Translations under genes and position numbers: made by a program | Part shown: piece after piece, positions 1,343-37,945 of the stretch | How the letters are laid out: every line of letters starts with the position of its first letter | Position numbering within the stretch: the stretch's first letter is position 1 | Notes under the pieces: generated by a model | Databases searched by the model: none | The model's input: the letters and a program-made list of their open reading frames with translations, nothing else | What the model was told of the DNA's origin: nothing | Assembly (NCBI GenBank): GCA_964017185.1 | Contig: OZ024877.1 | Span: 630,501 to 694,500 of the forward strand | Source: Rugalucina vietnamica | Taxonomy: Eukaryota > Mollusca > Bivalvia > Lucinida > Lucinidae | Direction of reading: 5' to 3' | Length of the DNA stretch: 64,000 nt

Positions 1343-1656
1343 GGTTTTACTTCTTTTGAAAGTTCGTCACTAGAAGAAGACAGAGATTGTTGTTTTCTGA
1401 ATTTTAGGCCAGGTGATGGCAAAATGTACCCTATCGAACTGCTGAGTAAAATCAACCACAATTCTTTATCTGGACTTCTCAAACTGATATGAACTAGGGA
1501 TGTGATGATTATCATGTACACTACAATGATCTGAGTGAAAAATGTTAAAGGATTTTTAGCTATTTTGGTTTTACTGTCTGCAGATGATTGCACAGAAGTG
1601 TTATCACCACTGCGATTGAATGAACTTCTAAAATCCATTTTCATGCTTTTATACAA
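1339..1656 (-). CDS. Small single-pass membrane protein, unknown
   Basis: The product is 105 aa if the first ATG is used; Met5 and Met7 are alternatives. A Ser/Lys-rich N-terminal half precedes one clear transmembrane segment (about residues 38-58, TFFTQIIVVYMIIITSLVHI) and a second weaker hydrophobic stretch near residues 66-78 (LWLILLSSSIGYI). The C-terminus is polar (SSSSDEL). Its 5' end overlaps the integrase stop by 8 bp and its 3' end overlaps the penton-like start by 4 bp. No family is recognised; a small membrane protein would fit a virion or egress role, but that is inference. Confidence 0.55.
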   Translation of the reverse strand: MYKSMKMDFRSSFNRSGDNTSVQSSADSKTKIAKNPLTFFTQIIVVYMIIITSLVHISLRSPDKELWLILLSSSIGYILPSPGLKFRKQQSLSSSSDELSKEVKP

Positions 1657-2719
1657 GATCAGACTCTAGAATCCAACTGTCAAATTTAGATGGATATCCT
1701 TTCCAGTGTACTTTGATTTCTTTAACCCACTTTTTTCCAACTTTGCGTTTTCTGTGAGCTAAGACCGAATCGATTTCAAAAATCTGATCTTTTTCGACAC
1801 GTTGTAACTCTTGAGAGTAGAATGTACCACTGACAGATTCACCATCGAGATCTCTTATTTTATAGGTGGTGGGAAACTGAGTTTTCACCACATCAGAAAT
1901 CTGAAACAATTCCTGTGTCCAATTTGGCAGATATCCTTTGTCAAATGTGCGTTTAGTTTTATTGATCCTAACATAATCACCTACTTTGAATTTAGTTTGT
2001 TTTTGCAGTTTTTTAGGTTTACCAAAAAGAATTTCAGACACTTGAGGTTCATTCTCTTTTGTCACAGAAACAGGTGCACGTTTGATACTTCTGTGATATG
2101 CATGATTGTAACCTTCGACTAATTTTGGAAGAACATCGACATATCGCAAAGTGCGATTGTGTGTGAAATACTTCCACATGCGACTTTTCAAAGTTCTTTG
2201 GAATCTTTCAACAATACTTGCTTTTGTTTCTGGGTTTTCAGTTGTGAAGAAATGAATTTTCTTAGATTTTAAAAACCCTTGAAAGTCTCTGTTTTTGAAT
2301 TCTGTACCTTTGTCAGTTTGCAAACTTTTTGGTTGACGCCCATTTTTCAACACAAGTTTAAATGCATTTACTAAAGTTTTTCCCGTCTTGTCTGCAATGG
2401 GTACAACCCATGCAAATTTTGAAAACACATCGATAATGCAAAGCAGATATCTAAACTTATCATTGGACTTTGACATTTTTGACATGTCTGCTAGATCGGC
2501 TTGCCATTGATGATCAATTCCTGCAACAACAGTCTTACGACGTAAAAATTTTCTTCTGATAGGTTTATGTAAAGTGTAGGTCTGTTGTTTTTTCAACCAA
2601 TTTCTGACATCTTTCAATTTGACATTTTTAGAAGATGATCTAGCAAGCTTGTACAAAGCTTGTTCACCAGCATAACCTGCAGGACTTTTTGGATCATAAT
2701 ACAATTTGTCGAAATTCAT
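1649..2719 (-). CDS. Retrovirus-like integrase with C-terminal chromodomain
   Basis: The product is 356 aa and inserts the element into host DNA. The DDE catalytic triad is visible: Asp in HQWQADLADM (near residue 75), Asp in LQTDKGTEFKN (near 135) and Glu in KASIVERFQRTLKS (near 170). An SH3-like segment follows (FKVGDYVRINKTKRTFDKGY). The last 45 residues form a chromodomain (VHWKGYPSKFDSWILESDLV). This is the standard Polinton integrase layout. No HHCC finger is evident in the short N-terminal region. The ATG overlaps the preceding stop by one base (TAATG). All catalytic residues are present, so the protein could be active. Confidence 0.93.
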   Translation of the reverse strand: MNFDKLYYDPKSPAGYAGEQALYKLARSSSKNVKLKDVRNWLKKQQTYTLHKPIRRKFLRRKTVVAGIDHQWQADLADMSKMSKSNDKFRYLLCIIDVFSKFAWVVPIADKTGKTLVNAFKLVLKNGRQPKSLQTDKGTEFKNRDFQGFLKSKKIHFFTTENPETKASIVERFQRTLKSRMWKYFTHNRTLRYVDVLPKLVEGYNHAYHRSIKRAPVSVTKENEPQVSEILFGKPKKLQKQTKFKVGDYVRINKTKRTFDKGYLPNWTQELFQISDVVKTQFPTTYKIRDLDGESVSGTFYSQELQRVEKDQIFEIDSVLAHRKRKVGKKWVKEIKVHWKGYPSKFDSWILESDLV

Positions 2720-4853: not shown

Positions 4854-4860
4854 TTTTATA
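4854..4860 (-). promoter_or_regulatory. TATA box overlapping the ATPase stop codon
   Basis: TATAAAA on the minus strand lies about 38 bp upstream of the 265-aa gene's ATG. The TAA stop of the ATPase gene (4858-4856) is inside this TATA box, so one sequence serves both genes. Confidence 0.6.
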
Positions 4861-5545
4861 CGCTTGGAAAATAAACCACTGGTCCCGATTGATCTGATTT
4901 TGTAAACCAGTATTGAAAAATATTTGTTCTCAATCTCAAGTAATTTGGTGTGCTTGGTTTCAAATCGACCAGTAAGTAACCATGAGGTTTTGATGTTGCA
5001 TCGTTAAAGGCTGGAATCATATGTGGTGTTTGCAGTTGATTGGAAAGAACTTTGATCTGCATTTTGTCCCTTGGACTTTGGAACAAAACCAGATAATGTG
5101 CATTCAAACTAATTGTTCGAGATGATTTGCTTTGTTGAAATAAGTTTTGTGTGATGTAGACCAAACTCGCATTTCTATGGTGTCCTTTTCTCGTAAACCA
5201 TAACTTTATCTTTTCTTCATCTTTGTCTCCCAACATATCGTCAAAGATGACTAAGTGTGGTACACTGACATCAGTGACGATGTCATCCTCGTCATCTGGG
5301 ATGCCGAGAATGAATTTTATGTTTGATCCTTCACGTTCTTGCAGGATATTGTAGGCAGATTGCCATTCTTTGTAACACCACACAATTTGTTGTGGTTGAA
5401 TGTCAAACAAATCTTCTTTGTATTCAATCATTTTCTTAACAAATTCCGTTTTTCCAGAACCACTAGGACCAGATATAAAGATATTGGCAGTATGTTTGAA
5501 GAACATACTACCAATATCTTGTTGTAAAACTTGTATAGCCGACAT
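4856..5545 (-). CDS. A32-like/FtsK-HerA genome-packaging ATPase
   Basis: The product is 229 aa, typical for Polinton packaging ATPases, which drive DNA into the capsid. Walker A is FISGPSGSGKTEFVKK (residues about 23-38). Walker B is HLVIFDDML (about 95-103), with a following acidic patch. A conserved YITQNLFQQSK motif (about 129-139) is the sensor-like segment common in A32 family members. The start is supported by a TATA box 57 bp upstream. The Walker motifs are intact, so activity is plausible. Confidence 0.9.
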   Translation of the reverse strand: MSAIQVLQQDIGSMFFKHTANIFISGPSGSGKTEFVKKMIEYKEDLFDIQPQQIVWCYKEWQSAYNILQEREGSNIKFILGIPDDEDDIVTDVSVPHLVIFDDMLGDKDEEKIKLWFTRKGHHRNASLVYITQNLFQQSKSSRTISLNAHYLVLFQSPRDKMQIKVLSNQLQTPHMIPAFNDATSKPHGYLLVDLKPSTPNYLRLRTNIFQYWFTKSDQSGPVVYFPSV

Positions 5546-5895: not shown

Positions 5896-8800
5896 TTACA
5901 AGTCATATCCATAGGGTACCGTGTATCCTTTAACGAGAACCACGCGTTTATTGTACGTGAATTTATAAGTCTTTGTTTGTTCCTCAGTGGTCACCTTCCT
6001 ATCGCTGTGCTTTCTGATTCTATTGTACTTGGCAGTCACTGAAAAGTTCCTACTTTCAGACTTTGACCATTCCAACATCTGATGGAAATGTATCAGCTGA
6101 GACGTGTTATAGTCCAGTGTCAATCCTTTCACTTTACATGTAGATTTCCTTTGTCCGTCTTTCTCCACATACTCATACCCATAGTTCTTAGGTCCCATAC
6201 CAACAAATTTCACAATTCTTGCATCTGGTACTTCATCAGTCCATTCACCAAGACGATCCCCAATTTCTGGATTCCATTCGTCTGGTTCGTGAACGTAGAT
6301 GATTGAGTCCGTGTCAAAGTACAATACTCTTGATCCTAGTTTATCTAACTTATCGTACAATCTCAACCTAGCTTGTGCCGTCACAAATGCACCTACAACC
6401 ACATTGCTACAAGTGTGAGGTTCAACAAGATTGTCTGTTTCTTCCCAGTTCACGTGTACAAATCTTTCTCCGTATATGTCTACATTCTTCACGATCTTAG
6501 ATGGATTTGTTATCAGTTCAAAATATTTGGCTGGATCAGATATGTATTCAGTCTTTGTCATTTTTTCACGCTGTGCCAGCTTACCCCACAAACTATTCAA
6601 CATAATCTTGGCTATAGCTCTCAGTCCGGGATTCTTTTCTACTTCTTCTAATGAGATTCCTTCTGCTTCGAAGTAATCACGTATGAATTTTTCCTTGTCA
6701 GCTTCGGTCTTGCACCATTCGGGATAGCCACTCGATTCTTGTTTGACTTTCAAGAAGACATCGATGTACTTCGTGAAGATACCACCCTCGCCAGTTTTCT
6801 TGTCATACTGTGTCGTCTCCGGGAAATGCCACACTTCATACACGTCCAGTAATTCATATCCTTTTTCTAATGCAGCCTTTAACTCAATGCTAACCCAAGT
6901 TCCTACTAGAGCCCTTTCATCATCTTCTGAATGTGTACACTTTTGTGAGGGATCACATCTTTCTGCACAAGTTCTGCACAAGGGAAACATGAGTTTATTG
7001 TTACATTTGTAAGGGAGTACGGGATGAAACAAGTCTCTAGGAGGCAATACCTTACATTTGATTAGTCCTTCATATTGCTTAATATTATCTTTGTCCACAT
7101 TTTCTTGAGATAGGATGGTTGGATGACCCAAGGGAAACAGTCCATACTTGCATACGGTTGGATACAAGGAACAAACATCAATGTACTTGATTTCATCCTG
7201 TGATGTCTCGTCGATTTCATGGTAGAGTTTTGTTGAATTGGTCCGCCCACCAAACAAAGCATCTCTTGGTCTCAGTGGATCTAAGTTGGTAAAGTGAGAG
7301 TCTACAGTCTTTCTGAATTCTTCGTCCTCTTTGTACCTTTTGTCATATTCACATTCCCACATCTCGATCACGAGGTATCCATTGTCTTTGAATTTCTGCA
7401 TCAGGTAGTTGGTGTTAGTGTACAGTTGTCCCATGGTCTGACAGCTTTGTTTGTGAATCGTCTCTCTATCTGGAAAATGTGTTGGACAACCATGCCAGTA
7501 ACATCCATGGAACTCGTAGATAGTTCTAGATTCTCTGTGATAACCATCCACGCAGTGTCCACAAATCCTAGCTTCTCCTCCATTCAATGCATGCTGTATC
7601 TCGATTCCCTGTTCCTCTGCTATACTTTGAATCCATCTCACCGCTTTGATCGAGTAGTTTTTCTGGTTTGGATATCCTTCTGGAGGAATGATGGCCACAC
7701 AGTTTTCTGGCATGTAGTTCTTTCTCCAGACTTTGGAACAGGCTTGGGCAATCGTACAGGATTCCATCAAAGGATCTAAACCACTTATATCTTTCAAGAT
7801 CTTTCTGAAACTCCCGCATCCACGTCTTAAGATATCCACATCACTCCGACAATATTCTTCCATCTCTCGTCTAAAGTCAAAGATCGTTCCAGACTCTACC
7901 TTTTCGTTGTACCATTTGTAAAATTCGGTCCTATCCTTTTCTGACATCTGTCCAGGCATGTACATCTCTGCAGGGAAGTAAGGTCCTACATAGTCCTGAT
8001 TGGCTTCTGTATTGGCAAGATGAGGAAAATAGCCTTTCTTCATTTCTTTCAATCCAAATGTCTTTGGGAAATTGGCAAGTCTCATGTGCAGGAACAAGTA
8101 GGAGTCCAGAAAAGTCACTTTGCCTATTCTCATTCTCATAATAGTATTTCCATTCATGATCACGTCAGGTTTCATTGTCCCATTCTCCAAGATGTGCCTC
8201 AAGATAAACTGTCCATCGTATCCGCCAAAGTTATGAGCAATGCATGTCACTCCTTTGTTATCGTCTCCCAGTATCCAAGCGCAAAATCTAGATAACGTAT
8301 CTGTTCCCTCAAAGATAACTTCTCGTCCCCCTGGTAACGTGCTGCAACCTGGACAGTATTCATCGCTAGGCAGATCTATGCAGTAATCGCAAGCTCTTTG
8401 TGCCACGCAAAAGTTGACTTGATGTTCTCCAGTTTCTTGAGATGACTCGAAATCGAAGAAGACGAATTTCGGACCAGTAGTGGTTTTCTCTTCATCTTCG
8501 CTTTCCTCGGCATCTGAATCTGCAGCTCTAGATGCATTTTTCTTAGATACATATTTCTGAATGTAACATTGATGATTTGGACCTACAATTTCCTTACAGA
8601 TCTTACACTTTCTATTACCAGGACATACATGATTCTTTTTGTTACCAACGATACGACGTGAACACTTTTCACAATTGTATACAAGTTGACAAATAGATTT
8701 CTGCTGATTACCCTTAATTGCCTTATGATTATCAAAACAACTTTGACTCTTAAAAGTTCTCTTACAATCAACACATTTGATTTTCTGTCCAGGTATACAT

Positions 8801-10024
8801 GGAATGTCATTATAGCAACCATCACATCCATCGTTACATCGGTGATCTCCTCTGTTAGTGTAGCCGACATCACAATACTCGCAGTAGTAAGCACATCCCA
8901 TCAGTCCCGTCACCTTGGTTACTGTATCGTAGTGTTTGTCTCCATTCCAGTACAGATGAATGACTTTCGTCTCTCGTTTTTTCTTGAACTGTAGTGGAAA
9001 GATCAGTCCATCCTTAGGATGTTGTGAATGGACTTTGATCAGGTAGTCTGGTTTCAATACATCTTGGATTTTCTTGTATTCCTCAATGCCACAGACTTTG
9101 TCATGAGGAATCTTAGCTTGGTCCAGTAACTTCTTTGCTTCCCGTGTCTGCATCGGACGATCAGAATGTCTGATGTGATTCCAGTTTTTCTGCCAAGTAT
9201 CTGAAAGTAGAAAGTGGAAAAAAAACTAAACAATCAAGTACTAAGTAAACATATGTTTGGATATCTTTTCATAATAGGTCTTAGTTACTCAAAACTTATG
9301 AAAACGTACATAAGATGCAAACATATGAACATGTTAAAGGATTAAAGTAGTTTTTAACAAGATTCTAACCTGAATCATCTTTGTCAGCATTACATTTCCC
9401 CACCACCACAGCTCTGGCCATACACATGACATCATCTGTGTTGTTGATCTGGACAATACTTCGTTTATTCTGTCTCATGGTCTCTGACTCGAAATACAGT
9501 CCATGATGAAGTGGTTTTCTTCCAGCACCAGTAGGGAGACTACACGTTGTCACGTCAATCCTCATCTGTCCATCGTTGATCTTGAAATTGTCATTGGATT
9601 GCATCACTTTCTCAATTTCTTGTAGGATGATTTCACCAGTCAACGAGGACACATCACGCCATGTCACAAAGACTCCCAACTTCAAGCCTGGATGGTTGAC
9701 AGTCATACGGATTTTGTCATCGCCCGCCACTTTACACTGTATCTTGATAGCTTCCACCAAGTCGTCAAACAGCTTTGGAACAAACTCTAATGGTGACACA
9801 TCTTCAGGAAATTTCTTCACATCCACTTCGTAAATTTTGGCTTTCGATCTGAACAATCTCGATTCAGTCTCTCTCTTCAGCTTGATATCAAAATATTTGT
9901 CATCAGATACTTTCTGCCTTTTGCCGGGTGGTGGCCTCATCATCTCATCTTCACTCTCCTCACTATCGGAATAATCTACCAGTCTTCGTTTATTTACCAT
10001 GTTGACTCTTCGAAGTTTATTCAA
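5896..10024 (-). CDS. Protein-primed family B DNA polymerase, two exons
   Basis: Exon 1 is 9370-10024 and exon 2 is 5896-9200; the intron removes 169 bp in phase 1, giving about 1,319 aa. It replicates the element from protein-primed ends. Exon 1 has an acidic start, a basic nuclear-signal-like PPPGKRQKV and an N-terminal domain usually fused to Polinton polymerases. Exon 2 has Cys-rich zinc-binding clusters (CEYCDVGY, CVDCKRTF, CKICKEIV). Exonuclease motifs follow (FFDFESS; HNFGGYDGQF; YCRSDVDIL), then palm motifs A (DVCSLYPTV), B (KIMLNSLWGKL) and C (YFDTDSI). All catalytic acids are present. Two starts are possible, 10024 and 10000; a TATATAA at 10057-10063 fits either. Confidence 0.92.
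9201..9369 (-). other. Spliceosomal intron in the DNA polymerase gene
   Basis: The minus-strand donor is CAG|GTTAGA and the acceptor is TTTCTACTTTCAG with a pyrimidine-rich tract before it. Read without splicing, exon 1 stops two codons after the donor. With splicing the phase-1 junction restores one frame and links two parts that are contiguous in Polinton polymerases I recall. The 15 codons between the acceptor and the first ATG of exon 2 are open and in frame. Confidence 0.8.
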
Positions 10025-12205: not shown

Positions 12206-12955
12206 ATGTCACAAGATCCAAGAAAAGAAAAATTCAATGACTCAAAGAGTATCTACTATCAACAAAGATCATTGATGAAAGGCACCTTTACACATGCTGC
12301 GCCAGGGTATAAAGTCGACGACACAGACTCACAGAATCATTCTACTTCAAATCGTCAAAGAGTAAACATGGATTCAACTATGAGCAGTGAGACTAAGAGT
12401 ATCTACTACCACTTCATATCTTTGAAGAAACTTCTCACTACAGATGAAATTCAAAAGCTGAAACCATTAGAAGATACACTGAAGGCACAAGGAAAACTTG
12501 TTCCACCTTTTGGACAATGTTACTACTGTAAAGAAACAACACACTGGGCCAGCGATTGTTTGAAACTAAAGCTTGCTAGAGAACAACCAGATGGAAAACC
12601 AGCATATGGACAATGTTTCAAGTGCGGTTCGTTCGATCACTGGGCTTCAAAGTGTCCACAGACAGATGAGACAAAACCAGAGAAAATTTCAACATCAACT
12701 GAATCAACTGCAGTGGTGGAAAAGACAAACAAACGAAAGCGAATGTGTGACGAAGATGTGCCAGAGCCAACTCCAAGCAAGCAGCGAAAAGTAGAGAAGA
12801 CAGCTGAGCCAAAGAAGACGAAAAGAAGGATTCCTAAGAGGAAATATTGCTTCATCTGTAAATCAGAGACTCATGATGCTAAGAACTGTGACGAAATTGT
12901 TCTTGATCCAGAAGAAGAGCTGAAGAAATCATTAAGTAAATTGACATTGAACTGA
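12206..12955 (+). CDS. Protein with three CCHC zinc knuckles
   Basis: The product is 249 aa. Three CX2CX4HX4C knuckles are visible: CYYCKETTHWASDC (about residue 102), CFKCGSFDHWASKC (about 137) and CFICKSETHDAKNC (about 215). They would bind single-stranded nucleic acid. The N-terminal half contains two copies of a KSIYY...SL motif (KSIYYQQRSL and KSIYYHFISL), a small internal duplication. A basic region (KKTKRRIPKRK) precedes the third knuckle. The C-terminus ends KLTLN, like the upstream gene. It may coat or package nucleic acid; this is inference. Confidence 0.6.
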   Translation: MSQDPRKEKFNDSKSIYYQQRSLMKGTFTHAAPGYKVDDTDSQNHSTSNRQRVNMDSTMSSETKSIYYHFISLKKLLTTDEIQKLKPLEDTLKAQGKLVPPFGQCYYCKETTHWASDCLKLKLAREQPDGKPAYGQCFKCGSFDHWASKCPQTDETKPEKISTSTESTAVVEKTNKRKRMCDEDVPEPTPSKQRKVEKTAEPKKTKRRIPKRKYCFICKSETHDAKNCDEIVLDPEEELKKSLSKLTLN

Positions 12956-13105: not shown

Positions 13106-13116
13106 TTACAATGGTT

Positions 13117-13299
13117 TTCTTTCTGAAGATTTGGTCAGTAACAGTATTACAAAGATATTCTTTCTTAAGAAATGGTCAGCAAATTTCTTACAAACATATT
13201 CTTTCTGAAGATATGGTCAGCAAATGTCTTACAAAGATATTCTATCTGAAGATTTGGTCAGTAACAATATTACAAAGGTATTCTTTCTGAAGATTTGGT
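13117..13299. repeat. 41-bp tandem array of a histone-downstream-element-like motif
   Basis: TTCTTTCTGAAGAT or a close variant starts at 13,117, 13,158, 13,199, 13,240 and 13,281, an exact 41-bp period. On the minus strand each unit reads ATCTTCAGAAAGAA, and four of the five are preceded by ACC(A/T/G)A-like sequence. The fifth unit sits directly beside the hairpin at 13,300-13,315, where a purine-rich downstream element would be expected. Confidence 0.75.
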
Positions 13300-13315
13300 A
13301 GTCCTGAAAAGGACT
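13300..13315 (-). terminator. Histone-type 3' stem-loop, copy A
   Basis: The minus strand reads AGTCCTTTTCAGGACT: a perfect 6-bp stem and a TTTC loop. It is preceded by AAAAC and followed by ACCA, as in metazoan histone mRNAs. It begins 27 bp after the stop of the 58-codon gene. A purine-rich CAGAAAGAATA lies about 12 bp further downstream. Confidence 0.75.
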
Positions 13316-13342
13316 GTTTTGGTCATGAGAGACAAGAGATCC

Positions 13343-13519
13343 CTAAGGTTTTCGAGGCATTGGTCTTACAATGGCCACTGGTTTGCAGTAACCAATACCT
13401 CTTCTGGCCAAAAATATCTGTATCCCCATCTTGTTTTGTTGCCTCTCAATTTCCCGATAATCTTTTTTGTGAAAAGCAGCACACAATTTCCTCAAGCTGA
13501 ATTTTTCAAAGAACCCCAT
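13343..13519 (-). CDS. Small 58-aa protein, unknown, histone-type 3' end
   Basis: The ORF starts MGFFEKFSLRKLC and ends RPMPRKP. It is short, but a TATA box lies at 13,556-13,562, a promoter motif shared with two neighbours lies at 13,574-13,585, and a histone-type stem-loop follows the stop by 27 bp. The protein is basic (many Lys/Arg), with two Cys residues and no domain I recognise. Its convergent neighbour is the zinc-knuckle gene. The matched promoter and 3' end make it much more credible than an ORF of this size alone would be. Confidence 0.6.
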   Translation of the reverse strand: MGFFEKFSLRKLCAAFHKKDYREIERQQNKMGIQIFLARRGIGYCKPVAIVRPMPRKP

Positions 13520-13555
13520 AGTTCCAAAATGTACTGAGAGGCACAGAACACGATG

Positions 13556-13650
13556 TTATATAGTCGATGAGTAGGATTGACCTACATTTTCACTGGAACC
13601 AATCAGAAGAGTTAAAGTCAGAACCAATGAGAAGTTCACATACGATCACG
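13556..13650 (-). promoter_or_regulatory. Promoter of the 58-aa gene (shared module, copy A)
   Basis: Read on the minus strand: two CCAAT-type boxes written on the plus strand as AACCAATCAGAAG and GAACCAATGAGAAG (about 13,598-13,635), then GTAGGTCAATCC (13,585-13,574), then TATATAA (13,562-13,556). The order and spacing match the promoters of the 152-aa and 140-aa genes. Confidence 0.6.
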
Positions 13651-13737
13651 CCACAAAGATCACACCATAACCGTAAGATAACATATATACAACAAAGACA
13701 CATTAATAAAAGTTATTTCAATCGGAAAGAAGTGTGT

Positions 13738-13753
13738 GGCCCTGAGAAGGGCC
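13738..13753 (-). terminator. Histone-type 3' stem-loop, copy B
   Basis: The minus strand reads GGCCCTTCTCAGGGCC: a perfect 6-bp stem with a TCTC loop, which fits the UYUN loop rule. It begins 27 bp after the stop of the 152-aa gene. The downstream sequence is ACACACTTCTTTCC, so a purine-rich element is less clear than in copies A and C. Confidence 0.7.
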
Positions 13754-13780
13754 GTTGGGTGGAACTATAGCCACAGATAA

Positions 13781-14239
13781 TTAGGAGCAGGCACAGTATC
13801 TGCTCCCACAGGCAGGACAGCGCTGTCCCCAACGATCAAACTTGACCGTTCTGTAGGCAGGAATCGAAAGATTCCTGCCTTCAAAACTATAGGACGGCTC
13901 GTTAGCCTCGTCGTCCCAATCTTCTGTCTTTTCGTTGTAGTTATGACTGGGTCTGTCATCATCCCAGTCCTCTTCTGACACAATTGGTGACAGTGTTTCC
14001 CTCTTTATCTCCACCTTTTCAACTACACGATCACCGTGAGCCAAATTCATGGCTCGTCTTGTCATACCAATCATGGTCTTTAAGTTAGCCACAGTCCGCT
14101 GCAAGGACTCAGCGCTGTTCCTGAAAGTGTTGATAGCTTCTAACATGCTAGTAGCTGCCCCACCAATACTGTCTGCCTGCTCCTCCAAAGCCCTCAAGTA
14201 GCATTCACAGTCAAACTGTTTTGCCATTTTGTTGTACAC
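13781..14239 (-). CDS. Unknown 152-aa protein with C-terminal Cys cluster, histone-type 3' end
   Basis: The N-terminal half is helical and heptad-like (residues about 14-60, ALEEQADSIGGAATSM, TVANLKTMIGMTRR), probably a coiled coil. The middle is acidic with repeated EDWDD motifs. The C-terminus has CPACGSRYCACS, four cysteines that could bind zinc. The start at 14,239 lies 35 bp from a TATA box; Met5 at 14,227 is an alternative. It is divergent from the 140-aa gene and shares its promoter motif. No family is recognised. Confidence 0.6.
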   Translation of the reverse strand: MYNKMAKQFDCECYLRALEEQADSIGGAATSMLEAINTFRNSAESLQRTVANLKTMIGMTRRAMNLAHGDRVVEKVEIKRETLSPIVSEEDWDDDRPSHNYNEKTEDWDDEANEPSYSFEGRNLSIPAYRTVKFDRWGQRCPACGSRYCACS

Positions 14240-14273
14240 GAGAAAAGTGTACAGATCTGCAAAATGCGTTTGC

Positions 14274-14406
14274 TTTTATACTCTCTGAGGGGATTGACCT
14301 ACTTTAAACTTCAAACCAATCAGAAGTTCTAGTATAAGTAACAAATCACAGCCGACTTTACAAACATGAGACAGAAAGTAGGTCAATCCTCCCAGTGAGT
14401 ATAAAA
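14274..14406. promoter_or_regulatory. Mirror-image divergent promoter (shared module, copies B and C)
   Basis: The left half on the minus strand has GTAGGTCAATCC (14,302-14,291) then TATAAAA (14,280-14,274). The right half on the plus strand has GTAGGTCAATCC (14,378-14,389) then TATAAAA (14,400-14,406). Both have AAA before the motif and GAG just before TATA. A CCAATCAGAAG box lies between them at about 14,313. The arrangement drives the 152-aa gene leftward and the 140-aa gene rightward. Confidence 0.7.
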
Positions 14407-14447
14407 GCTTAGCTCAACAGTCCAAGTTTTCACATTCATGTTCAGTC

Positions 14448-14870
14448 ATGGCTTCGAATCAAATCAGCTTCGATGATATGATTAACAACCCAGACATATT
14501 ACTGCAAGCATGTAATGAAGTCTTTACTAATGACACGGCAACTACACAACAGCAGTACTATCAACAACCAGTACAAGCGACTTCTCAGTACCAGCAACAG
14601 ACATCACAGTTGCAGCAACAACTGCATAGAACACAAATTATAGATGTCTTGGTTAAAGAACTCAATGAGTTGAAATCCAAAGTCAAACAACTGGAAGAAG
14701 AAGTACAGCGACAAGCGCTAATGCCAAGTATACAGTTTCCAGCGATCAGAATGCCTATCAGATTAGACATCATCAATACCGACCAACCGGTTACATCATC
14801 TCCAGCTGTAGGATTAGGCATAGCTAAGAAAGAAATACAAGCAACCAAGCGTAAAAAGACTACAAAATAA
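14448..14870 (+). CDS. Unknown Gln-rich coiled-coil protein, histone-type 3' end
   Basis: The product is 140 aa. After an acidic N-terminus (ISFDDMINNPDILLQ) comes a Gln/Tyr-rich tract (residues about 32-65), then a coiled coil (IIDVLVKELNELKSKVKQLE). The C-terminus is basic (KRKKTTK) and could be a nuclear signal. An out-of-frame upstream ATG at 14,438 opens a 12-codon ORF that overlaps this start and could lower translation. The stop is followed 30 bp later by a histone-type stem-loop. Domain order resembles a small transcription or nucleoprotein factor, but no family is recognised. Confidence 0.6.
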   Translation: MASNQISFDDMINNPDILLQACNEVFTNDTATTQQQYYQQPVQATSQYQQQTSQLQQQLHRTQIIDVLVKELNELKSKVKQLEEEVQRQALMPSIQFPAIRMPIRLDIINTDQPVTSSPAVGLGIAKKEIQATKRKKTTK

Positions 14871-14900
14871 AATTCAGACTTCACAAAACAACACTTAAAC

Positions 14901-14916
14901 AGCCCTTTTCAGGGCT
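14901..14916 (+). terminator. Histone-type 3' stem-loop, copy C
   Basis: AGCCCTTTTCAGGGCT has a perfect 6-bp stem and TTTC loop, differing from the metazoan consensus GGCYCTTTTCAGRGCC only at the stem's outer pair. It is preceded by an A-rich stretch and followed by ACCA, then CTGAAAGATAA at about 14,928-14,938, a plausible downstream element. Confidence 0.8.
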
Positions 14917-15034
14917 ACCAACTATTTCTGAAAGATAAACTTTATTTGCACATTACTTAAAGTCCCTGTCTTAACTCAAGGATACTTACCTACACATGCA
15001 ACTTAGCTAGTTCATAAACTGAGACCCAGGGTGC

Positions 15035-15161
15035 GCACTATGGGCACATTTTCTGAAAACTTATGGGTACATTTTTATGGGTACATTTCTAGCGCTACGC
15101 TTATCTGAAATGTACCCATAAAAATGTACCCATAAGTTTTCAGAAAATGTGCCCATAGTGC
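15035..15161. repeat. Perfect 55-bp inverted repeat with 17-bp loop
   Basis: Arm 15,035-15,089 is the exact reverse complement of 15,107-15,161 and the spacer is TAGCGCTACGCTTATCT. Each arm contains the doubled motif ATGGGTACATTT. It could be a small foldback/MITE or belong to the terminal region of the Polinton; it is 120 bp past the last hairpin-ended gene. Confidence 0.85.
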
Positions 15162-15169
15162 CACCCATT

Positions 15170-15520
15170 ACTACTCACATACGTTGCAGATACGAAAGGT
15201 ACGCTGTACATACGTCACGGTTACGTGGCATGTTAACCGCGACGTACGTGTTGCGTATCAGGAGTATGAGCTACGTATCTACGGCGTACCTGCCACATTG
15301 CTTTCGTGTGTACCACGTATGTGTGACGTATGTACGGCGTATCGGACCTGCTACTTACGTGCTACGAATTTTTAAACGTAGCACCTCGGCGTATGAGGAG
15401 TATGAGTTACGTATCGAGGAATATGAGCTACGTATGCTCACGTATGTACGACGTACGCGTGACGTACCTTTCGTATCTTGATACGCCGTAGATACGCGAG
15501 TCGATACGCAATAGTGTGAC
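15170..15520. repeat. ACGTA-rich low-complexity region
   Basis: Dense copies of TACGTA, GTACG and GAGCTACGTAT with many short palindromes. ORFs here are by-products of this composition and are not reported as genes. Confidence 0.6.
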
Positions 15521-36116: not shown

Positions 36117-37945
36117 CTATGATCAAAGGAATGGTTTAAACGTTTTGGTCAATAAAAAATTCTGGTGAGGTGCTCAGTAAATTGAAGTGTAGAGGGTTCC
36201 GTGCGACAAGCTTGTCCACATATGATTTTTCTACTCTGTATACAACATTACCACATAATCTAATTAAAGAAAAACTTCTGGATTTGATAGAGTGGACCTT
36301 CAAAAGGGCATTAAAAAACTATGGTTCACTTTATTTGACATGTAATGACAGAAAGGCTTTTTTCACTTCCTCTGACCAAAGTCGGTATACCCTTTGGTCA
36401 TGTCAGAATGTGTGCGACGCCTTATCCTATCTCCTTGATAATATTTATATTAGATTTGGGACCAAGTTATACAGACAAATTGTTGGAATTCCGATGGGTA
36501 CAAATTGCGCACCTCTCGTAGCTGATTTATTTTTATACTGCTACGAAAGAGATTTCATGGATTCTCTTAACCATGATAATCAAGCTGATGTTATCGAGGC
36601 TTTTAATTCCACATCTAGGTACCTCGATGACCTTTTGAACATAGACAACCCTTATTTTGAAGGTATGGTCAATCAAATTTATCCACCTGAACTTCAGTTG
36701 AACAAAGCTAATATCTCAGATACCGAAGCCCCCTTTTTAGATCTACATCTTTCTGTTGCAAATGGATTTGTTTCTTCTAAAATTTATGATAAGCGCGATG
36801 ACTTTGATTTTGATATAGTAAATTTTCCTTTTTTGGATGGTGACGTTCCTCGTCGTGCTTCTTATGGTGTATACATTTCGCAACTTATTAGGTTTGCTAG
36901 AGTCTGCAATCATGTTACAGACTTCAACGCTCGAAATAAATGTTTAACGGCAAAACTTCTCCAACAGGGCTATCGGTATCATAAACTTCGAAAAACCTTT
37001 TCTAAATTTTATCGTAGACACTATGAATTGATTTCCAAATATAATGTTGGGTTAAAGACACTTCTAAGTGAGGGCCTTTCGGAACCTGAATTTTATGGTG
37101 ACTTGGTTTACAAATTAAAGAAACTTAAAGGAATAAATGATTTTTCTCTTCAGTTCGGAAAAATCATATCACGTTACAGACGTATAGGTTATAACTTGAA
37201 TGTTATGCGACAGTCTGCATGCTTAGTTTTTAACCCAATCATGGTTGATAACTATGCTGCCTTCTTTAATTGCACGCCGGTGGGTCGGGCGTCAGACTCT
37301 ATGATGGCCCCGACTTAAAGCTATTCATTTTAGTTGGTTGGGGCCGGAGCTTCTTGTCTGTTGCTTGGCCCACCGGGGTCCAACTGGTGTTTTTCTTTTG
37401 CTCCGGAGTTAGTAGGTTATTCGGCGCCCAGGGATCTCCATCGTCGGGCAGCTTACTCAATCTGTGAGTCCTGGTTTTTGATTCATCAGGATGTTTATCA
37501 TGATTTATTTGTTTGTTCTTGATGATTCATTGACTAGTTAGAGATTCACCACGAGGACCGAAGAACTAACTAAATGTTGTGAACCACTGCAGAAGCTGAG
37601 GGTGAGGTTAGGTACCTGTAAAACCGGTTTAAGCCCGCCAGTAACTTTGTGTTACTGATCGTTCCAAGTCGATACTTCTGTAGTGGTTCTTTTTGTTTTA
37701 TGTCTTGGTGTTTAAAATTTTTTGTGCTGTTGGCGCCTTATGTATGTTTTCATATTTTTAGTTAAGTTAAGGTAACTGAGTGGCCACCTATTGGGAAAAT
37801 AGCTGCTCATTCGGCTTACGATATGTTTCATGGTATAAGTACCTGATTGTTAGTTTGGTTTTTTCCCACCTCGGTTTTTGGAGTGGGAATCTTTTTCTGA
37901 TTGCGCCTTTTCCTGATCTTTGCCTACTTGTACCTTTTTGTTTTC
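36117..37945 (+). mobile_element. Reverse-transcriptase retroelement, 5'-truncated, with 3' tail
   Basis: This is the longest copy of the family. It carries a reverse transcriptase ORF followed by about 630 bp of untranslated sequence ending TTTTCCTGATCTTTGCCTAC and TTGTACC. That tail recurs about 19 times in the window, mostly without coding sequence, as expected for 5'-truncated retrocopies. A minus copy at about 55,960-56,880 also includes the post-ORF region. It lies inside the Ginger-like element. Confidence 0.75.
36140..37318 (+). CDS. Reverse transcriptase (Penelope-like or related), N-terminus missing
   Basis: The frame is open from 36,140 and begins without an ATG, in the middle of a domain. 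Reverse-transcriptase motifs are LSTYDFSTLYTTLPHNLI, VGIPMGTNCAPLVADLFLYC and SRYLDDLLNIDN (YLDD active site), followed by IVNFPFLDGDVPRRASYGVY and a basic thumb-like region. I see no endonuclease. I recall this RT type as abundant in molluscs and fish; its short motif spacing suggests the Penelope group, but the class is not certain. The ORF has no internal stop. Confidence 0.75.
   Translation, partial: TFWSIKNSGEVLSKLKCRGFRATSLSTYDFSTLYTTLPHNLIKEKLLDLIEWTFKRALKNYGSLYLTCNDRKAFFTSSDQSRYTLWSCQNVCDALSYLLDNIYIRFGTKLYRQIVGIPMGTNCAPLVADLFLYCYERDFMDSLNHDNQADVIEAFNSTSRYLDDLLNIDNPYFEGMVNQIYPPELQLNKANISDTEAPFLDLHLSVANGFVSSKIYDKRDDFDFDIVNFPFLDGDVPRRASYGVYISQLIRFARVCNHVTDFNARNKCLTAKLLQQGYRYHKLRKTFSKFYRRHYELISKYNVGLKTLLSEGLSEPEFYGDLVYKLKKLKGINDFSLQFGKIISRYRRIGYNLNVMRQSACLVFNPIMVDNYAAFFNCTPVGRASDSMMAPT

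Follow-up and report, generated by a model that had tools for sequence, protein, structure and literature searches.

Here we describe three small genes, A, B and C, that lie together at the right end of a mobile, virus-like element in the bivalve Rugalucina vietnamica, within a 64,000-nt stretch of DNA (contig OZ024877.1, positions 630,501 to 694,500; hereafter the window). At the level of DNA, each of the three carries an H2A/H2B-type promoter, a short uninterrupted frame and a histone-type 3' end (Table 1). A preliminary description of this DNA had pointed out a perfect hairpin with a 6-bp stem and a 4-nt loop after each stop codon, at a distance of 27 (A), 27 (B) and 30 nt (C), and all three are present. 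It had also noted ACCA and a purine-rich element after two of the hairpins, which read as ACCA followed by AGAAAGAA at gene A, where the purine element is clear, and as ACCA followed by TGAAAGA at gene C, where it is visible; the hairpin of gene B carries an ACACA flank and a weak purine element.

Under a strict definition of the hairpin (perfect stem [AG]G[CT][CT]CT, loop TYTN), the window holds three, compared with an average of 0.003 over 300 dinucleotide shuffles, and under a looser one (any perfect 6-bp stem with a T-A pair closing TYTN) it holds five against 1.1 expected. When three mismatches to the consensus are allowed the window shows no excess (5 found, 5.14 expected), and the perfect stem is thus the informative part. 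Furthermore, the Rfam covariance model RF00032 (Histone3; curators' cut-off 34 bits) gives full-length matches at all three ends in a search of the whole window (E of 8.6e-6 for C, 4.1e-5 for B and 4.9e-4 for A) and finds nothing besides them in the 64 kb up to an E of 5. At the other end of the genes, the window has just three copies of the 12-mer GTAGGTCAATCC, one each upstream of A, B and C and 66, 75 and 70 bp from the respective start codons; the 12-mer is missing from the 200 bp upstream of the 13 other element frames checked.

Table 1. Features of the window discussed in the text, with E-values, scores and ratios of nonsynonymous to synonymous differences between copies (pN/pS)
Feature	Position	Strand	Remarks
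Integrase with chromodomain	1649..2719	-	PF00665 E 6.5e-13, PF00385 E 6.6e-7
Pox_A32-like packaging ATPase	4856..5545	-	PF04665 E 3.1e-5, 24.0 bits against a cut-off of 22.8
B-family DNA polymerase	5896..9153	-	PF03175 E 2.7e-48; no hairpin, no box
Tandem repeat of 41 bp, 4.7 copies, reiterating HDE-like (histone downstream element-like) sequence 3' of gene A	13106..13299	-	four more host-profile matches, E 0.011 to 0.53
Gene A downstream element CAGAAAGAA, resembling host H3 CAAGAAAGAA	13281..13289	-	best window match of downstream-only host profile, E 0.0011
Gene A histone-type hairpin AGTCCTTTTCAGGACT	13300..13315	-	then ACCA (13299-13296); RF00032 28.6 bits at 13274-13320
Gene A, 58 aa	13343..13519	-	no Pfam match; pN/pS 0.11
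Gene A TATA box	13556..13562	-
Gene A promoter box GTAGGTCAATCC	13574..13585	-	11 bp 5' of TATA
Gene A CCAAT-type element TGATTGGTT	13597..13605	-
Gene B histone-type hairpin GGCCCTTCTCAGGGCC	13738..13753	-	then ACACA, as in host H2A and H3; RF00032 31.5 bits at 13713-13758
Gene B, 148 aa	13781..14227	-	long helix predicted at 8-64; acidic middle part of low confidence; cysteines at the C-terminus (CPAC..CAC); pN/pS 0.11
Gene B TATA box	14274..14280	-
Gene B promoter box GTAGGTCAATCC	14291..14302	-	10 bp 5' of TATA
Single CCAAT element between divergent genes B and C	14314..14322	.
Gene C promoter box GTAGGTCAATCC	14378..14389	+	10 bp 5' of TATA
Gene C TATA box	14400..14406	+
Gene C, 140 aa	14448..14870	+	N-terminal half rich in Gln; long helix predicted at 47-90; C-terminus basic (KRKKTTK); pN/pS 0.16
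Gene C histone-type hairpin AGCCCTTTTCAGGGCT	14901..14916	+	then ACCA (14917-14920); RF00032 33.3 bits at 14896-14941
Gene C downstream purine element GAAAGA	14930..14935	+	weak host-profile match, E 4.4
Element right end, approximate	15174..15176	.	BLAST similarity stops at 15175-15181 in 15 of 29 copies, at 15036-15135 in 14 of 29

Host histone genes and their likeness to genes A, B and C

In the host assembly (1.09 Gb, 47 contigs), we located a histone repeat unit of 6.58 kb with PF00125. Its genes end in the hairpins GGCCCTTTTTAGGGCC (H3, H2A and H2B), GGCCCTTATTAGGGCC (H4) and GGTCCTTTTCAGGACC (H1), which follow the stop codon by 27 (H2B), 29 (H2A), 28 (H4), 33 (H3) and 34 nt (H1) and are themselves followed by downstream elements, for example CAAGAAAGAAAG (H3); at ends in the histone-repeat loci L047 and L076, RF00032 scores 35.2 to 37.2 bits. 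The preliminary description had suggested comparison with the host's own histone stem-loops and U7 small nuclear RNA: the hairpins prove to be of the same type, and the host U7 was not located.

The promoter of the three genes is likewise matched in the repeat unit. The same 12-mer GTAGGTCAATCC stands 97 bp before the start codon of host H2A and 85 bp before that of host H2B, with a TATA box 10 and 11 bp away, respectively, which agrees with the 10 or 11 bp at A, B and C; no exact copy was found in the 160 bp upstream of host H3 and H4. A CCAAT element, placed 5' of gene A and in the interval that separates B from C, likewise precedes host H2A, but none lies within 160 bp of H2B. Across the genome, box and TATA together have 191 matches (63 + 128), compared with 3 + 0 for the reversed control pattern. 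The first 100 matches in contig order, on which this and the later tally of places rest, correspond to 89 distinct places, 78 of them near element gene C, 7 near histones and 4 elsewhere; among these listed matches, one of the last four (C4:24003433) adjoins an element polymerase and another (C5:64726689) precedes an SGNH-hydrolase match that bears a hairpin as well, described below. Genes A, B and C thus resemble metazoan replication-dependent histone genes in the hairpin and its distance from the stop codon, the ACCA or ACACA flank, a purine-rich, HDE-like element (clear in A, visible in C), the H2A/H2B-type box with its spacing to TATA and the short uninterrupted frame; they differ in encoding non-histones and in lying on a mobile element.

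That none of the three proteins looks like a histone, as the preliminary description held, is upheld by the lack of any Pfam histone match and by the predicted structures of B and C, which are long helices of low confidence (mean predicted local distance difference test score, pLDDT, 65) with no histone fold. On the same grounds we see no support for A, B and C being diverged histones; their products, judging by these models, look like small helical proteins. These properties also bear on a possible origin, somewhat less likely than not, in which the regulatory ends of the three genes descend by capture from host H2A/H2B or from other hairpin-bearing host genes, the coding parts having been replaced or having diverged. 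Such descent would explain the exact H2A/H2B box and spacing, and the 44 nt past the hairpins align best with host sequences: H2A in the case of B (z of 6.9 relative to composition shuffles), a 106-aa gene from a host tandem array in the case of A (z of 7.5) and an SGNH-hydrolase gene of the host in the case of C (z of 8.3). However, the three ends then resemble three different host gene types, which convergence on one consensus would fit equally, and the proteins give no histone match. If captured, the signals may function now, in which case capture would be the origin of the histone-like expression considered below and no alternative to it, or they may be mere relics, an option that the strong conservation between copies disfavors.

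Conservation between copies of the element

We compared 29 further copies of the element with that of the window. The hairpin of gene A is perfect in 26 of the 27 copies that have its place and shows a single mismatch in the other, and all 29 copies have intact stems at B and C. The loops at B and C read TTTC except in two cases at B (TCTC, TTTT) and one at C (TTAT). According to the preliminary description, its proposal would fail if related elements had no hairpins at these genes; within this genome, such elements have them. In 20 of these copies, RF00032 finds 59 of the 60 possible ends, the one exception being in a copy without the A end. Promoters are kept as well: three boxes are found in 24 of the 29 copies and two in the remaining 5, and all 82 retain the 10- or 11-bp spacing to TATA.

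Site by site, across 27 copies (the window's own and two without the A end left out), 4 of 48 hairpin positions vary compared with 37 of 84 in the spacers between stop codon and hairpin (Fisher 1e-5), and 3 of 36 box positions compared with 27 of 93 in an intergenic stretch (Fisher 0.011); the bases after the hairpins (ACCA/ACACA) vary at 2 of 13. Mean pairwise synonymous divergence (pS) is 0.22 for A, 0.31 for B and 0.12 for C, which, together with the pN/pS values in Table 1, indicates that the three genes are under selection and that the copies are more than recent duplicates. Furthermore, an older, broken copy (61% identical in gene C, 82% in a piece of the polymerase) retains two boxes and a hairpin with ACCA and CAGAAAGAA.

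This pattern makes it very improbable that the hairpins and boxes are DNA-level features serving replication, packaging or recombination, or a neutral family resemblance. Most copies are closely related, so that conservation is partly recent descent, and the z-scores of the folded ends (given below) are modest, as such an account would have it; yet the hairpins lie in the sense orientation 27 to 30 nt after three stop codons, on both genomic strands, they obey the loop and flank rules of histone hairpins, the box and its spacing are shared with host H2A/H2B, and the signals persist in the older copy and among copies whose synonymous sites have diverged and whose hairpins have not.

Proposed expression of genes A, B and C

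We consider it likely that A, B and C imitate replication-dependent histone transcription units and are transcribed and 3'-processed by the S-phase machinery of the host. The preliminary description had proposed that some of the element's genes exploit the RNA processing that the host uses in its replication phase, and at the level of sequence this gains support from the covariance model, with scores slightly below its cut-off, and from the host-like distance between stop codon and hairpin, the downstream elements, the conservation between copies and the H2A/H2B-type boxes. Passages of two papers describe histone mRNA as bound by SLBP at the hairpin while the U7 small nuclear ribonucleoprotein (snRNP) pairs with the downstream element, the mature end lying a few nucleotides past the hairpin and carrying no poly(A) (PMC1924863, PMC6303110). 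By analogy, the host factor that acts on H2A and H2B would also drive A, B and C, chiefly during S phase. Their hairpins would recruit SLBP and their downstream elements would base-pair with the U7 snRNP; a cut by the histone cleavage complex a few bases past the hairpin would yield capped mRNAs without poly(A), to be translated during host DNA replication and destroyed afterwards. The element's polymerase, integrase and packaging genes would use other signals. Such timing would let a few auxiliary or regulatory proteins be made when the replication machinery and the nucleotides for the element's polymerase are at hand; our guess is that the A, B and C proteins act during S phase in one of these capacities.

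In a different arrangement, which we regard as improbable, the hairpins would bind SLBP in the service of mRNA export, translation or stability, or else to soak up SLBP, and the mRNAs would normally be cleaved and polyadenylated further 3'. Histone pre-mRNA can be polyadenylated at downstream signals when processing fails, as a passage of one of these papers states (PMC6303110), and the downstream element of B is weak. Genes A and C, on the other hand, have downstream elements, both with ACCA, and neither AATAAA nor ATTAAA lies within 300 nt 3' of A, B or C, although most other element frames lack them likewise.

Several observations weigh against expression in the manner of host histones. The RF00032 scores in the window (28.6 to 33.3 bits) are slightly below 34, and a default gathering scan lists none of the three ends; just 2 of the 59 matches in other copies exceed the cut-off (34.6 and 34.3 bits). 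The folding energy of the 63- to 70-nt ends, set against shuffles, gives z of 0.13 (A), -1.73 (B) and -2.23 (C). When the 44 nt past the hairpin, hairpin excluded, are searched with a profile built from nine 3' ends of the host, of which four are from histones and five are not, only A matches with confidence (E 0.0011), C (E 4.4) and B (E 5.2) matching weakly, if in register; with a four-histone profile A comes second (E 0.83), B has an E of 15 and C is absent among the 15 matches listed. Gene B has no clear purine downstream element. As for the host factors, a Pfam-domain search of the host genome for SLBP gave no match, in a search that cannot join exons and that left its controls unmatched too; U7 had no Rfam match in the host genome, which does not by itself show absence; and an Sm-site pattern for U7 gave no signal, with 19 matches compared with 27 in the control. 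Recent shared descent explains part of the conservation between copies, and the lack of AATAAA and ATTAAA at A, B and C carries little weight because 9 of 13 other element frames checked have neither. Finally, the host's own SGNH and array genes (L039-L042 and L044, described below) have the 3' end without the exact GTAGGTCAATCC box, so hairpin and promoter are separable.

Should histone-like expression of A, B and C hold, a virus-like element would be synchronizing genes with host DNA replication by a novel route, and it would provide a natural experiment on the signals sufficient for S-phase coupling.

Non-histone host genes and the wider element

The histone stem-loop is taught as the sole exception to the poly(A) tail, private to histones, and the preliminary description likewise had it serve almost only histones. 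This does not hold here. The exact pattern GGYYCTTTTCAGRRCC has 142 matches genome-wide compared with 2 in a control, and of 100 listed places 26 lie near element gene C, representing the hairpin of B, 4 at histones and 70 elsewhere. SGNH-hydrolase genes are among the latter in the matches listed: dispersed, single-frame genes of this family end in histone-type hairpins at L042, L044 and about 20 further places, and the two such ends scanned score 35.7 and 36.0 bits with RF00032, above the cut-off. On C1-C10, 42 SGNH matches extend as far as residue 190 of 195, and a listed hairpin lies just 3' of 16 of them; the other 26 do not fit the exact pattern GGYYCTTTTCAGRRCC, other hairpin forms not having been sought. 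Counting all 88 SGNH matches on these contigs (of 110), 25 have a hairpin, together taking up 23 of the 94 hairpins listed there. By coordinates, one SGNH match (C5:64726804) has an H2A/H2B-type box about 115 bp upstream and a hairpin 79 bp downstream (C5:64726689-64727405 overall), with no gene C match nearby among the matches listed.

A large tandem array begins at C5:38078161 (L039), with a unit mostly of about 1.2-1.5 kb. We rejected it as a host histone cluster because it encodes a 106-aa non-histone gene, the relatives of which are found in bivalves (Mya arenaria and Mizuhopecten yessoensis being named) and in many short contigs. The gene ends in CCAAAT and a hairpin, GGCCCTTCTCAGAGCC, with one C-A mismatch in the stem, followed by ACCCA and CAAGAAAGA; its ends score 22.8-30.2 bits with RF00032, below the cut-off. 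Related genes of 122-124 aa form small clusters at L040 and L041, with the hairpin GGTTCTTTTCAGAACC and either AAGAAAGAA or AGAAAGAA downstream.

These SGNH and 106/122-aa genes share with A, B and C a histone-type 3' end on a gene that encodes no histone; they differ in not having been seen within the element and in having no exact box in the loci read. Since the array gene and the SGNH hydrolases bear such ends, the rule that these belong to histones only fails in this host. On balance, we favor a wider view in which a virus-like element wears the full regulatory dress of a histone gene at both ends of three genes and so joins the host's S-phase histone program, and in which bivalves generally put histone-type 3' ends on a wider non-histone set (the tandem-array family and SGNH hydrolases), such that the "histones only" rule would fail in the lineage. 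As host non-histone genes are apparently under the same control, membership of the histone mRNA regulon becomes testable in ordinary bivalve RNA data.

The cassette of A, B and C forms the right end of an element of about 15 kb or more, present in many dispersed copies, the left part of which apparently lies beyond the edge of the window. In combining a B-family DNA polymerase of the protein-primed type with a retroviral-type (rve) integrase that carries a chromodomain and with an A32-like packaging ATPase (A32/FtsK type), it resembles Polinton/Maverick (and adintovirus-like) elements, from which it differs by the right-end cassette with histone-type signals. Polinton/Maverick elements as a family have terminal inverted repeats and a 6-bp target duplication. 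No description of a histone-signal cassette was apparent in the open-licence literature searched, at the level of titles and abstract openings, and no capsid protein or adenovirus-type protease gave a Pfam match among the open reading frames (ORFs) scanned, the element apparently continuing past the left edge of the window.

Gene C has 56 matches in the host genome, fragments among them, and a gene C match lies within 16 kb at 33 of the 36 polymerase places compared (of 46 polymerase matches); a polymerase match more distant than that of the older, broken copy, at C11:51695640, has 43% identity. There are 76 homologues of protein B, with 34-95% identity in the aligned region, and 28 of protein C, with 67-100% identity and the window's own included, nearly all of both in ENA contigs. 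Scans of viral contigs with protein B, the polymerase and the hairpin plus ACCA pattern gave no match.

A few further observations concern the element and its surroundings. At C3:3397789-3430181, gene C is about 29 kb from the nearest polymerase match, as opposed to about 5 kb in the window, and hairpins intervene at 3404191, 3412311 and 3420121, perhaps marking insertions. Within the window, positions 12206-12955 hold an element gene with CCHC zinc knuckles, retroviral Gag-like, and a palindrome-like stretch of about 80 bp (15058-15138) lies just inside the right limit of the element, with fold-back matches there in several other copies. Elsewhere in the window, at 37293-37360, an Rfam SECIS_1 match of 39 bits, above its cut-off, overlaps the end of a 274-aa ORF (36494-37318), which may be a selenoprotein exon.

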